Shown here in pieces: positions 2,952 through 7,316 of a stretch of DNA of 7,886 nucleotides. The translations under genes and the position numbers were made by a program. Origin of the DNA: DASVDK01 sp036381125 [NCBI: Thermodesulfobacteriota bacterium] (lineage in GTDB: Bacteria; DASVDK01). The notes beneath the pieces are model-generated. The model saw only the letters and a program-made list of their open reading frames with translations, ran no database searches and was not told where the DNA came from. Where the stretch lies: assembly GCA_036381125.1 (NCBI GenBank), contig DASVDK010000192.1, forward strand, positions 1 to 7,886, given 5' to 3'. The number at the start of each line of letters is the position of its first letter. Position 1 is the first letter of the stretch.

Positions 2952-3578
2952 TCAGAACACGCGAAGGGCGTCGACGGCGTCGCGCTCGCGGCGGGCGAGG
3001 GCGCGGATGACGGCGAGGTCGCCGTGCCGGTGACGGGCGGCGGCGACCAGGTGGTCGACGACGGCGTCGCTCACCGCGCGCGGCCAGTCGGGGGTCGCAA
3101 GGCCGAGGCTCACCGCGAGGTCGTCGGTGTGGACGGTGATCTCCACCATGCGGGTGACCAGGTAGTCGTCGAGCCGCATGACGTGGCCGCCGGTGACGGC
3201 GACGAGCCGGTCCCGCGGCTCGGCCGGCAACCGCGTCCGGAGCCGGGCGAGCGCGGCGTCGACCGCCGCCACGAGCGCCGCGGGGCCGTCGGCGGCCAAC
3301 GCCTCCCCGCGCGCCCGGATCCCGACGTGGACCGGGTCGGCCAGGTCGCGCGTGGTCAGGACGGTCGGAAAGTAGGCGGCGGCCGGGATCGGCCGTGCCG
3401 ACGGCGGCGGCGCGTCGAGGTACGACTCGACCACGAGCACCGCCCGCGCCAGGTGCCCGGAGAGCCCCCGCACGGTGAACTCCGCGAGCGCGCTCGGCGC
3501 GTCCCACCGCGCCGCCGTCTCCGGCGCCGCCAGGAGCCCCCGCGCGACGCCCGCCGCCTCGAGCCAGGTCCCTCGCAT
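2952..3578 (-). CDS. Maleylpyruvate isomerase N-terminal / DinB-like metal-dependent protein
   Basis: A 208-residue, mainly helical protein that resembles the maleylpyruvate isomerase N-terminal (MDMPI) family within the DinB/YfiT four-helix superfamily. Three residues are spaced like the zinc ligands of Corynebacterium maleylpyruvate isomerase (H52, E144, H148): H42 in LSGHLA, then E146 and H150 in [11 protein letters not shown]. Characterised relatives are thiol-dependent transferases or isomerases that use mycothiol or bacillithiol. Which thiol, if any, is used here is unknown. A separate C-terminal SCP2-like domain, present in true maleylpyruvate isomerase, is absent. The start ATG has a strong purine-rich Shine-Dalgarno (GGGAGGGGG) four bases upstream. 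The gene leads a minus-strand operon with purE and the CoA-transferase, and is divergent from the zinc transporter genes across 109 bases. The exact reaction is not assigned. Confidence 0.75.
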
Positions 3579-3599: not shown

Positions 3600-3628
3600 A
3601 GTCTAGCCGACGCGCCTTGACAGGGGAA
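3600..3628 (-). promoter_or_regulatory. Weak candidate promoter for the minus-strand operon
   Basis: Read on the minus strand, TAGACT (3605-3600) fits the TANNNT pattern of a -10 element, and a poor -35 (TTCCCC, 3628-3623) lies 17 bases upstream. The predicted start falls about ten bases further on, just ahead of the GGGAGGGGG ribosome-binding site. The -35 match is weak. The element overlaps the spacer region of the divergent znuA promoter, so the two promoters could interfere with each other. Confidence 0.3.
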
Positions 3629-3646
3629 CCGCCGGCCCGCTACGCT
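3617..3646 (+). promoter_or_regulatory. Candidate sigma-70-type promoter of the znuACB operon
   Basis: A perfect TTGACA -35 hexamer (3617-3622) is followed after 18 bases by TACGCT (3641-3646), a three-of-six match to the -10 consensus. Transcription would start near 3653, which places the AT-rich dyad at 3652-3671 directly on the start site. The znuA Shine-Dalgarno GGAGGG (3677-3682) lies five bases before its ATG, leaving a 5' leader of roughly 35 bases. The call rests on the -35 match and on position. Confidence 0.5.
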
Positions 3647-3651
3647 TGCTC

Positions 3652-3671
3652 CTGCAATTTAGTCGCAATTG
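3652..3671. promoter_or_regulatory. Candidate Fur-family (Zur-type) operator
   Basis: This 20-base stretch stands out as AT-rich against very GC-rich surroundings. It contains an inverted repeat CAATT (3655-3659) / AATTG (3667-3671) with a 7-base spacer, and at the same time a direct repeat GCAATT (3654-3659 and 3665-3670) with an 11-base period. It can also be read as CTGCAA-N5-TCGCAA (3652-3668), which matches 10 of 12 bases of the TTGCAA-N5-TTGCAA pattern I recall for the Streptomyces Fur-family regulator Nur. It lies at the predicted transcription start of znuA, the usual place for a metal-loaded Fur-family repressor to block transcription. A Fur-family gene is encoded at 6867-7316. Binding is inferred, not shown. 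Confidence 0.5.
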
Positions 3672-3687
3672 AGCCCGGAGGGTCTCG

Positions 3688-4608
3688 ATGCCTCGTCATC
3701 CCCTCGCCGCTCTCGCGGCCGCGGCGGTCCTGGCCGTCGGCGCGGGCGGGGCCGTCGCCGCCGAGTCGGGCCGGGTCACCGTCGTCGCCACCGTCTACCC
3801 GCTCGCCGAGTGGGCCGCGCGCGTCGGCGGCAACCGCGTCGCCGTCGCCAACCTGATCCCGGCGGGCAGCGACCCCCACGACTTCGAGCCGACGCCGGCC
3901 GACCTGCGCCGCCTGCGCGAGGCCGACGTGGTGCTGACGCTCGGCCCCGGCTTCCAACCGGCGATCGACCGGGCGCTGCGGACGCGAACTCCGGGGCAGG
4001 TCCGCCTGGTCGCGACCGAGGGGCTCGCGCTCCGCGCGCCGGCCGAGGGCGGCGACGACCACGGGGACGACCTCCCCGGCGACCCGCACGTCTGGCTCGA
4101 CCCGGTCCTCGCGAAGCAGATCGTCGGCCGCATCGCCGACACGCTCGGCGCCGCCGATCCGGCCGGGGCGGCCGCCTACGCGGCCAACGCCCGGGCCTAC
4201 CAGGCGCAACTCGACGACCTCGACGCCCGCTACGCCCGGACGCTCGCGTCGTGCGCGCACCGAGACCTCGTGACCTCGCACGCGGCCTTCGGGTACCTCG
4301 CGGCGCGCTACGGACTCCACCAGGTGCCGATCCAGGGCCTCTCGCCCGAGGCCGAGCCGACGCCGCGCCGACTCGCCGAGCTGGTCGCGTTCGTCAAGCG
4401 CCGCGGCATCCGGTACGTCTTCACGGAGACCGTCGTGAACCCGAGGGCGGCCGAGACGCTCGCGCGCGAGAGCGGCGCCGGCACCCTCGTGCTGCACACG
4501 CTCGAGACGCTGTCGCAGGCCGAGGTCGCGCAGGGCAAGACCTACCTCGGCGTCATGGCGGAGAACCTCCGCGCCCTGGCGACCGGCCTGGAGTGCCGGG
4601 CCTCGTGA
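3688..4608 (+). CDS. znuA: Zinc ABC transporter, periplasmic substrate-binding protein ZnuA
   Basis: Cluster 9 (ZnuA/TroA-type) metal-binding protein of 306 residues. A signal peptide covers about residues 1-25: MPRH, an alanine-rich hydrophobic core, and a likely signal peptidase I site after AVAA. No lipobox cysteine is present, so the protein should be soluble in the periplasm. The metal ligands are visible as H64 (DPHDFEPTP), H134 (DPHVWLDP) and H198 (VTSHAAFGYLAARYGL). His in the third position is typical of zinc proteins, whereas manganese PsaA-type proteins have Glu. E273 (HTLETL) lies near the site of the usual fourth acidic ligand. The Asp/His loop between the first two ligands is very short (GDDHGDD, 122-128) compared with the long His-rich loop of E. 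coli ZnuA. FTETVVNP (245-252) is a further family signature. It is the first gene of the operon, with a good Shine-Dalgarno, and its stop overlaps the znuC start. Manganese as substrate is a less likely alternative. Confidence 0.93.
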   Translation: MPRHPLAALAAAAVLAVGAGGAVAAESGRVTVVATVYPLAEWAARVGGNRVAVANLIPAGSDPHDFEPTPADLRRLREADVVLTLGPGFQPAIDRALRTRTPGQVRLVATEGLALRAPAEGGDDHGDDLPGDPHVWLDPVLAKQIVGRIADTLGAADPAGAAAYAANARAYQAQLDDLDARYARTLASCAHRDLVTSHAAFGYLAARYGLHQVPIQGLSPEAEPTPRRLAELVAFVKRRGIRYVFTETVVNPRAAETLARESGAGTLVLHTLETLSQAEVAQGKTYLGVMAENLRALATGLECRAS

Positions 4609-5423
4609 GCGTGACCGCGCCGGCAGCGCCGACCGGTCGGGCCGCCCCCCTCGCCCGCCTGCGCGGGGTGTCGTTCGTCTACGGTGCGACCCCGGTGCTC
4701 GAGGACGTCTCGCTCGACATCGAGCCGAGGGCGCTCGTCGGCGTCATCGGCCCCAACGGCGCGGGCAAGAGCACGCTGCTCAAGGTGATCGCCGGGCTCC
4801 TCGAGCCCTCGAGCGGCACGGTCGAGCTGTTCGGGACGCCGATCGCCCGCTTCCGCGAGTGGGGGCGGGTCGGCTACGTGCCGCAGCGCCCCCGGCTGCT
4901 CGGCGTCAACGTCCCGGCCTCGGTGGACGAGGTGGTCTCGGCCGGCCGCCTGGCCAGGCTCGGCCCCGTGCGCCGGCCGGGCGCGGCCGACCGGGCGGCC
5001 GTCCTCGACGCCATCGAGACGGTGGGGCTCTCGGATCGGCGGCGGCGTCCCATCGCCGAGCTGTCGGGCGGCCAGCAGCAGCGGGTCCTCATCGCACGCG
5101 CGCTCGCGAGCGAACCGCAGCTCCTCCTGCTCGACGAGGCGCTGGCCGGCGTCGACCTCGACACGCAGGAGGACCTCTACGCCCTCTTCCGGCGGTTGAC
5201 CCGCGAGCGCGACCTCGCCGTCGTCTTCGTCTCGCACGACGTCGGCGTCCTCGCCACGCAGGTCACCACGATGGCGTGCCTCAACCGCCGGCTCCTCTAC
5301 TGGGGTTCGCCCGAGGCGCTGCGCGAGGGCGACCTCTTCGAGCAGCTCTACGGCGGCGCGAGCCTCTTCACCCACACGCACCTGCACGCACACGGGGACC
5401 CGGGTCCCCGGCCGAGGGGGTGA
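4605..5423 (+). CDS. znuC: Zinc ABC transporter, ATP-binding protein ZnuC
   Basis: Cytoplasmic ATPase of the zinc importer, 272 residues from the chosen GTG. All ABC motifs are present: Walker A GPNGAGKST (49-57), Q-loop YVPQ (Q94), signature LSGGQ (153-157), Walker B LLLLDE (173-178, catalytic E178), D-loop GVD and H-switch VSHD (H211). The usual Pro after DE is Ala (DEALAGVD), a mild deviation. The C-terminus carries alternating histidines H257, H259, H261 and H263 (HTHLHAH), a His-rich end often seen in zinc importer ATPases. GTG at 4605 overlaps the znuA stop as GTGA, with a GGAG 11 bases upstream, and gives a normal N-terminus. In-frame GTGs at 4593 and 4611 are alternatives. The gene is followed after six bases by znuB. 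Confidence 0.92.
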   Translation: MSVTAPAAPTGRAAPLARLRGVSFVYGATPVLEDVSLDIEPRALVGVIGPNGAGKSTLLKVIAGLLEPSSGTVELFGTPIARFREWGRVGYVPQRPRLLGVNVPASVDEVVSAGRLARLGPVRRPGAADRAAVLDAIETVGLSDRRRRPIAELSGGQQQRVLIARALASEPQLLLLDEALAGVDLDTQEDLYALFRRLTRERDLAVVFVSHDVGVLATQVTTMACLNRRLLYWGSPEALREGDLFEQLYGGASLFTHTHLHAHGDPGPRPRG

Positions 5424-5429
5424 GGCGCC

Positions 5430-6236
5430 ATGCCCGAGATCCTGCAGTACGACTTCATGCAGCGAGCGCTCGCCGGCGGGACGCTGATCGGGCTCCTCTG
5501 CCCCCTCATCGGGACCTTCCTCGTCCTGCGCGGGTACGCGCTGATCGGCGACGGCCTCGGTCACGTGGCCTTTGCCGGCGTCGGCACCGCCATGCTCGCC
5601 GGCCTCTACCCGCCGCTGCTCGCCGGCCTCTTCGCCGTCGCGGCCGCCCTCGGCCTCGAGCGCCTTCGCCGCAGGCCCGGCAGCCGCGGCGAGATCGGCC
5701 TCGCGCTCGTCTTCTACGCCGGGATCGCCGTCGCGGTCATCGCGGCCACCCTCGCCCGGTCGTTCAACGCGGGCCTGCTCGGCTTCCTCTTCGGCAGCGT
5801 CGTCACGATCGGCGCGGCCGACCTCTGGGCGATCGGCGGCCTGACGCTCCTGGTCGGCGGCGCCGTGGCGCTCCTGGGACCGGCCCTCTTCGCGGTCGGG
5901 ATCGACGAGGAGGCGGCCCGGGTGGCGGGCCTGCCCGTGGACCGGCTCAACGACCTCCTGGCGGTGTCCGCGGCGCTGACCGTCGTGGTGGGGATGCAGG
6001 TGGTCGGCGTGCTGCTCGTCGCCGCGCTCATCGTCGTCCCGGTCGCCGCGGCCCTCCCCCTGGCCCGCAGCTTCCGGCAGGCGCTCCTCGGCGCGGTCGC
6101 GCTCGGCGTCCTGTCGGTCTGGGTCGGCCTCGGCGCGAGCTTCTACCTCGACCTCGCGCCGGGCGCGACGATCGTCCTGGCCGCGCTCGCGCTCTACGTC
6201 CTGACCAGCTCGGCCGGTCGGCTCCTGCGGCGCTGA
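5430..6236 (+). CDS. znuB: Zinc ABC transporter, membrane permease ZnuB
   Basis: Inner-membrane permease of the ABC-3 family (ZnuB/TroC/MntB type), 268 residues. Hydrophobic segments lie at about 13-33, 48-75, 88-108, 114-128, 133-156, 176-210, 215-237 and 243-261, consistent with the seven to nine helices of the family. Family signatures are GDGLGHVAFAGVG (41-53), LLGFLFGS (116-123), EEAARVAGLPV (160-170, the likely ATPase-coupling region) and VGVLLVAALIVVPVAAAL (192-209). It dimerises with two ZnuC subunits to carry the metal handed over by ZnuA. The ATG lies six bases after the znuC stop, with purine-rich sequence upstream, so co-translation is likely. It ends 24 bases from the convergent response-regulator gene, with no clear terminator between them. 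Confidence 0.93.
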   Translation: MPEILQYDFMQRALAGGTLIGLLCPLIGTFLVLRGYALIGDGLGHVAFAGVGTAMLAGLYPPLLAGLFAVAAALGLERLRRRPGSRGEIGLALVFYAGIAVAVIAATLARSFNAGLLGFLFGSVVTIGAADLWAIGGLTLLVGGAVALLGPALFAVGIDEEAARVAGLPVDRLNDLLAVSAALTVVVGMQVVGVLLVAALIVVPVAAALPLARSFRQALLGAVALGVLSVWVGLGASFYLDLAPGATIVLAALALYVLTSSAGRLLRR

Positions 6237-6260: not shown

Positions 6261-6638
6261 CTAGGCCGCGCGCGCCCGACCGAGCCGGTGGGCGACGCTG
6301 GCCAGCACGGTGTCCGGATCGAACGGCTTCACGATCACCTCCGGGCATCCGGCCGCCGTGGCCGCCCGGGCCGTCGCCGGGTCGGCCAGCGCCGTCAGCA
6401 CGAGGATCGGATGCTCGGGCCAGCGCCTGCGCAGCACGTGGCAGAGGTCGAGGCCGTTGCCGTCCGGGAGGGCGACGTCGAGCAGCGTCAGCGCCGGCGG
6501 CGTCGACTCGGCCAGCACGTGCCGGGCGCTGCCGAGCGTCTGCGCGACGGCCACCTCGTAGCCGGCCGTCTCGAGCATGAGGGTGAGGATCGTCGCGATG
6601 TCCGGTTCGTCCTCGACCACCAGGATGCGCGTCGCCAT
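6261..6638 (-). CDS. Single-domain response regulator (CheY-like receiver)
   Basis: A 125-residue protein made of one receiver domain and nothing else. The acidic pocket is D10/E11 (VVEDEPD), the phospho-acceptor is D54 (LLDVALPDGNG), the switch Thr is T82 (VLTAL) and the conserved Lys is K104 (VKPFDPD), so the phosphorylation chemistry looks intact. There is no output domain, so it must act through protein contacts or as a phosphorelay intermediate. The ATG at 6638 is chosen because MATRILVVEDE is the standard receiver N-terminus; the frame continues 55 codons upstream but that part looks like non-coding leader. The Shine-Dalgarno is a poor G-rich run. No histidine kinase lies in the window. 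It is downstream of the Fur-family gene on the same strand, 228 bases away and behind a hairpin, so it is probably expressed separately. Its partner and pathway are unknown. Confidence 0.9.
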   Translation of the reverse strand: MATRILVVEDEPDIATILTLMLETAGYEVAVAQTLGSARHVLAESTPPALTLLDVALPDGNGLDLCHVLRRRWPEHPILVLTALADPATARAATAAGCPEVIVKPFDPDTVLASVAHRLGRARAA

Positions 6639-6866: not shown

Positions 6867-7316
6867 CTACGCCTTCTTGACGCCTCCGGCGCCGCGGCGG
6901 CAGGTCGGGCAGGTGCCGAAGAAGTCGAGCCGGTGGGCCTCGATGCTGTAGCCGCTACGTCGCGATACGATGCGATGGATCGACTCGAGGTCGCATCCCG
7001 GCAGCTCGTCGATCCGCCCGCAGACGGTGCAGACGAGGTGGTGGTGGTGGTCGATGAACGGCTCCGCCAGCTCGAAGCGGGCAGCGCCCTCGGCGAACTC
7101 CACCCGGCGGGCGAGACCGAGCTCGACGAGGAGCCCGAGGGTGCGGTAGACGGAGCTGCGGTCCACTCGGCGGGCACGCACTTCGTCGGCGAGGGCATCG
7201 GCGTTGACCGGCCCCTCCGCCGCGGCCAGCGCGCGGATCACCGCATCGCGCGGTCCCGTGTAGCGGTGCCCCTCGGCGTAGAGGCGCTCGCGGATGCGCT
7301 CCACGACGGCGTCCAT
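6867..7316 (-). CDS. zur: Fur-family metal-dependent transcriptional regulator, probably Zur
   Basis: A 149-residue Fur-family repressor of normal length. The winged-helix DNA-binding domain covers about residues 1-80, with the recognition helix in DRSSVYRTLGLLVELGLA (52-69). The dimerisation domain carries the HHHH cluster (90-93), the structural zinc site CTVC (C96, C99) and CPTC (C136, C139), with E82, E104 and H128 (EAHRLDFFG) near the regulatory metal positions. Fur, Zur, Mur and Nur cannot be separated by motifs alone. Zur is preferred because the gene lies beside a complete zinc-type importer whose start region carries a Fur-like dyad. With metal bound it would repress uptake when zinc is sufficient. 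The ATG has no Shine-Dalgarno, but a TAGCAT -10 element ends six bases before it, suggesting a leaderless transcript. Confidence 0.85.
   Translation of the reverse strand: MDAVVERIRERLYAEGHRYTGPRDAVIRALAAAEGPVNADALADEVRARRVDRSSVYRTLGLLVELGLARRVEFAEGAARFELAEPFIDHHHHLVCTVCGRIDELPGCDLESIHRIVSRRSGYSIEAHRLDFFGTCPTCRRGAGGVKKA

Follow-up and report, generated by a model that had tools for sequence, protein, structure and literature searches.

The closest described counterpart of the site analysed here is the Zur box ATGCAACnnnGTTGCAT, predicted upstream of znuABC-zur in Desulfovibrio, with a D. desulfuricans instance given in Table 5 of that study (Rodionov et al. 2004, PMC545781). In Streptomyces, the nickel regulator Nur, which controls sodF and nikABCDE and has an M-site of four histidines (PMC7055735), reads the box tTGCaa-N5-ttGCAA (PMC3919588). 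The M-site ligands of ScZur include Cys79 and His87, and a Zur without an M-site has been described in Synechococcus (PMC11077047). Among the literature matches listed, all outside subscription, PMC545781 is the only source in which we found the TGCAA class given as a Zur box. Here we describe a box of this class before the importer genes in a 7,886-base window (the whole stretch of DNA analysed). Positions 3652–3668 are predicted to be, with good probability, an operator of the TGCAA-N5-TTGCA class for a zinc-loaded Fur-family dimer (Zur). The class is uncommon but has already been predicted in Desulfovibrio; the setting here is probably new, and the site has an asymmetry in common with four distant genomes.

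The window has a GC content of 75.5% and carries, on the forward strand, znuA (3688–4608; PF01297, E 3.7e-88), which encodes a metal-binding importer protein apparently of the zinc type; znuC (4605–5423; PF00005, ABC_tran, E 4.3e-32), which encodes the ATPase and begins within a GTGA shared with znuA; and znuB (5430–6236; PF00950, ABC-3, E 4.3e-57), which encodes the permease. A Fur-family gene on the reverse strand (6867–7316; PF01475, FUR, E 4e-22), whose product is the candidate reader of the operator, lies 0.6 kb past the end of the znuABC operon. These Pfam matches bear out the initial annotation, which had placed the site at the start of a metal-importer operon with a Fur gene nearby. 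Between znuB and fur lies a reverse-strand gene for a single-domain response regulator (receiver only; 6261–6638), and no histidine kinase was found among the scanned window ORFs. An E1-like protein with a transketolase domain is encoded at 2–1267; its C-terminal part matches aceE-type models far under cut-off, and its highest identity is 48% among 331 Chloroflexota genomes and 49% among 326 Actinomycetota genomes, about equally far from both. An MDMPI_N-domain gene (2952–3578, reverse strand) faces znuA across a 109-base gap, which contains in order TTGACA-N18-TACGCT, CTGCAATTTAGTCGCAATTGAG, CGGAGGG and the znuA ATG. The first of these elements (3617–3646, forward strand) is the probable znuA promoter, which we count as putative because an automated promoter scan reported nothing above its threshold; CGGAGGG (3676–3682, forward strand) is the ribosome-binding site suggested by the sequence.

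The predicted operator core, CTGCAATTTAGTCGCAA, lies 20 bases before the znuA ATG and is assigned from its letters and from the occurrence of the same box class in other genomes. Its reading as CTGCAA-N5-TCGCAA, proposed earlier, falls exactly on 3652–3668; since TTGCAA is its own reverse complement, the terms direct and inverted repeat name one arrangement. For a Fur-family dimer, the natural reading is a predicted 7-1-7 site, TGCAATT-T-AGTCGCA, with half-sites TGCAATT (3653–3659) and TGCGACT (the complement of 3661–3667). A forward CGCAATT (3664–3670), 11 bases from the first, may be an extra half-site, and a second dimer site is doubtful because this copy has no partner half. The two GCAATT copies pointed out in the initial annotation do stand 11 bases apart (3654–3659 and 3665–3670); the window holds no other copy on either strand, and the repeat extends to GCAATTTAG/GCAATTGAG, 8/9 identical. 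The stretch was rightly called AT-rich, as the 20-mer beginning at 3653 is the GC minimum of the window (7/20). The proposed CAATT/AATTG dyad fared less well: its letters are present, with CAATT starting at 3655 and AATTG ending at 3671, but CAATT-N7-AATTG was rejected as an operator, being found in 0/78 upstream regions of relatives and 2/257 loci overall.

Within the window, TTGCAA-N5-TTGCAA (at most 3 mismatches) has a single site, 3652–3668, with 2 mismatches of 12 (expected 0.09; at least one site in 17 of 200 shuffles). TGCAA-N5-TTGCA (at most 2 mismatches) likewise has one, 3653–3667, with 1 mismatch at the 10 fixed positions (expected 0.18; 35 of 200 shuffles), as does TTGCGACTNNNTTGCAA (at most 3 mismatches), with 1 mismatch (expected 0.06). 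The generic motif is only moderately unusual per window, so the weight of the argument rests on its position at the importer start and its likeness to sites in relatives. A Zur dimer would occupy the 7-1-7 site through its two half-sites, covering about +1 to +16 under the putative promoter. Because the predicted operator and the probable znuABC transcription start overlap, a repressor bound under ample zinc would block RNA polymerase there; when zinc drops, the site would empty and the importer would be made.

Relatives were gathered by ZnuA searches. A scan of named genomes gave 21–40% identity among the best 80 of 161, and further searches covered 201 Chloroflexota, 246 Actinomycetota and 145 Verrucomicrobiota genomes, 8 genomes of the family of G413 and 199 of the class of G277; 45 genomes of a further phylum gave no ZnuA match at E 1e-40. 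Each phylum label is taken from the named locus on which the search was centred. The best ZnuA identity was about 50% in the Actinomycetota phylum, with 53% over the aligned part in G321, and the orthologues compared for box conservation are 39–53% identical to the window ZnuA. The box scan covered 310-base, orientation-corrected regions at 78 znuA starts, which represent 76 distinct sites (L002 and L090 are one contig, L003 and L141 one genome). It took in 20 of the 80 named-genome loci, the remainder being nearly all Bacillota, and left out 13 of 30 Chloroflexota loci in which the match starts near residue 120.

TGCAA-N5-TTGCA boxes scoring 9–10/10 were found in 8 of the 78 upstream regions (7 of 76 distinct) versus 1 of 1161 tiles drawn from these loci (Fisher 1.5e-9), where the control tiles are largely coding and unlike upstream regions in composition. 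The eight include L133, a 9/10 match far upstream beside a good TGA-type box, which we take as chance; L004 (8/10, p 0.24) was left out of the count. Among Verrucomicrobiota, the box occurs in 4 of 19 loci (G533, G004, G580 and L009) versus 0 of 205 tiles. The box precedes znuA or fur-znuABC in four Verrucomicrobiota genomes, six Actinomycetota-phylum genomes and one other; shuffling of individual loci gave modest values for several relatives (0.01–0.07). In G239 (L118) and G293 (L122), where fur directly precedes znuABC, an identical promoter box, ACGCAACTGAGTTGCAT, sits between the -35 and -10 elements of fur-znuABC, which in G293 are TTGACA and TTAATA spaced 17 bases. This box is one base off the predicted D. 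desulfuricans Zur site ATGCAACtgaGTTGCAT listed in PMC545781, despite the different phyla.

Of the six Actinomycetota-phylum genomes, four (G277, G867, G871 and G813) share an identical box, TTGCGACTTTTTTGCAA, between divergent fur and znuA genes. Their ZnuA proteins are 63–77% identical to one another and 41–45% identical to that of the window, and many letters flanking the box differ, with a few next to it common to three or four of the genomes. The window complement, TTGCGACTAAATTGCAG, agrees with the pattern TTGCGACTNNNTTGCA at each of its 13 fixed positions. In a set of 238 loci (1.50 Mb) this pattern occurs only in these four genomes, and its chance in the 109-base gap is about 1e-6 by base composition, for a pattern fixed after the likeness had been noticed. 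Across 396 Actinomycetota-phylum genomes, TTGCGACTNNNTTGCA is present in nine, three times at fur/znuA and six times elsewhere (five of the six inside long open frames), and the reversed control gave 5 matches. A wider regulon defined by YGCRACTNNNTTGCR was rejected: in six genomes, there were 5 matches beyond the fur/znuA sites versus 9 for the reversed control, and no zinc gene was obvious near those five among the open frames, which were viewed without family searches.

Most of the znuA orthologues compared are without the box type of the window. The TGA-type box TGAnAATnATTnTCA, scoring at least 10/12, is present at 16 of 23 Actinomycetota-phylum loci (from the Actinomycetota search and the family of G413), at 4 of 9 actinobacterial loci of the named-genome scan and at 16 of 26 further loci; because it was detected where present, we judge the scan able to find an expected Zur-type box. 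Conservation before orthologous znuA genes, the refuting check named in the initial annotation, is mixed: the box is present in a subset of genomes and absent from most of those compared, in which another Fur-family box is found instead. G413, the closest full-length ZnuA match in the Actinomycetota search, has neither a TGCAA-type nor a TGA-type box. At L121, L124, L127 and other Actinomycetota-phylum loci, the TGA-type box and the predicted start codon of znuA overlap, hinting at messages with no leader or a very short one. Chloroflexota loci such as L104, L105, L106 and L095 have palindromes like TGAYACNNNGTRTCA / TGAGACTTAGTCTCA before znuA, perhaps another Zur box type. The Chloroflexota-phylum locus L085 (G168), with 44% GC, encodes a ZnuA 46–48% identical to that of the window, the highest value in the sample of that phylum. 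Its genes lie in the order fur-znuABC with ATGATACTGGTATCAT immediately before fur, and the locus may have been horizontally acquired.

The window Fur protein keeps the structural Cys4 site (C96, C99, C136 and C139) and the ScZur D-site ligands (H90, H92, E111 and H128), and has HHHH at 90–93. The ScZur M-site pair is absent, with R70 in place of Asp65, which we take to be an M-site ligand, and A84 in place of Cys79; A43 stands for His36. At the N-terminal His position of Fur proteins it has Pro36, which disfavours a Nur-like four-His site, one of whose ligands is presumably His33.

The initial annotation had predicted a Fur-family operator with Nur-like spacing and had left the choice between an uncommon Zur motif and a metal other than zinc; the site does follow the layout of the Nur box. 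A Nur-type operator whose regulator senses nickel or another non-zinc metal would account for the letters and spacing, which match tTGCaa-N5-ttGCAA with two mismatches. Comparison of ZnuA with NCBIfam gives no match at cut-off and leaves the metal unsettled, since the strongest sub-threshold matches are MntC, a manganese protein, which leads, and the zinc protein AztC. The nearest solved chains are AdcA and YcdH, in which the DPH, DPHVWL and H-x-AF segments align, and the window ZnuA shares with both the His of its TSHAAF segment. This His marks the zinc type, manganese proteins having Glu instead. No nickel transporter (nik) or SOD gene was found among the ten window ORFs scanned, and the regulator has Pro36 as against the four-His M-site of Nur outlined in PMC7055735. 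The same letters form the predicted Zur box of Desulfovibrio in PMC545781, and boxes of the class recur before znuA and fur-znuABC. Zinc is therefore more likely than nickel as the metal, to judge from these comparisons; the uncommon Zur motif is favoured, and a non-zinc operator appears highly improbable. The site could also be an AT-rich promoter tract that resembles an operator by chance and has no regulator: promoters are AT-rich, shuffling predicts 0.09–0.18 copies of the generic motif per window and the nearest match, G413, is without the box. Against a chance origin stands the exact 13-position match to a box that four genomes keep at the same gene and that none of the other loci in the set of 238 contains, and we regard chance as improbable.

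A real, zinc-linked operator could still be read by a Fur paralogue encoded at some other place in the genome, with the protein encoded at 6867–7316 having other targets. Many relatives carry two to four Fur-family genes, and the local Fur shares more identity with regulators next to TGA-type boxes (33–44%) than with those next to TGCAA-type boxes (23–36%). In a tree built from 57 Fur-family sequences it has no clear place and does not group with the TGCAA-box regulators, which themselves fall on separate branches, and no TGCAA-type box precedes the local fur gene. Against the paralogue, relatives of the local Fur usually adjoin znuABC, doing so in many genomes, and the window has no TGA-type box at up to 3 mismatches. 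Its recognition helix begins with DRSSVYRT, which resembles the DRASIYRT found in the four TTGCGACT regulators but neither PQSSVYRN nor VGIASVYRA; because two unlinked Furs have DRST, and so share DRS, this likeness is only a weak hint. We consider a paralogous reader rather unlikely. That the 6867–7316 protein reads the operator is, taken alone, somewhat more likely than not.

If 3652–3668 is a TGCAA-class Zur operator, the class would provide a usable motif for zinc regulons in lineages where standard Zur boxes fail to apply. It is possible, though we propose it only tentatively, that TGCAA-N5-TTGCA constitutes a second zinc-repressor code, widely scattered, at which several unrelated branches of the Fur family have arrived, and that the asymmetric TTGCGACT-N3-TTGCA of the window and distant genomes is a sub-code for a dimer preferring two unequal half-sites. 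Letters alone do not separate Nur boxes from TGCAA-class Zur boxes, so caution is needed in calling TTGCAA-N5-TTGCAA sequences nickel boxes.

Compared with known systems, the window matches the Nur box in letters and spacing with 2 mismatches of 12, but its target is the zinc-type importer znuACB and its Fur protein is without the N-terminal His. The actinobacterial-type Zur box TGAnAATnATTnTCA occupies the same place before znuA, with a relative of the Fur protein encoded nearby, in many Actinomycetota-phylum genomes, whereas the half-site of the window differs. Like the Desulfovibrio system, the window has a TGCAA-N5-TTGCA palindrome ahead of znuABC and a Fur-family gene in the same cluster, and its site shares 12/17 letters with the D. 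desulfuricans site; unlike that system, it is less symmetric (5/8 pairs versus 8/8), has the half-site TGCGACT and has fur outside the operon. The genomes with TTGCGACTTTTTTGCAA differ from the window in the spacer (TTT versus AAA), the last base (A versus G), their divergent fur/znuA layout and their locus GC (51–59% versus 75%), and with them the window shares TTGCGACT-N3-TTGCA exactly, including the off-consensus G.
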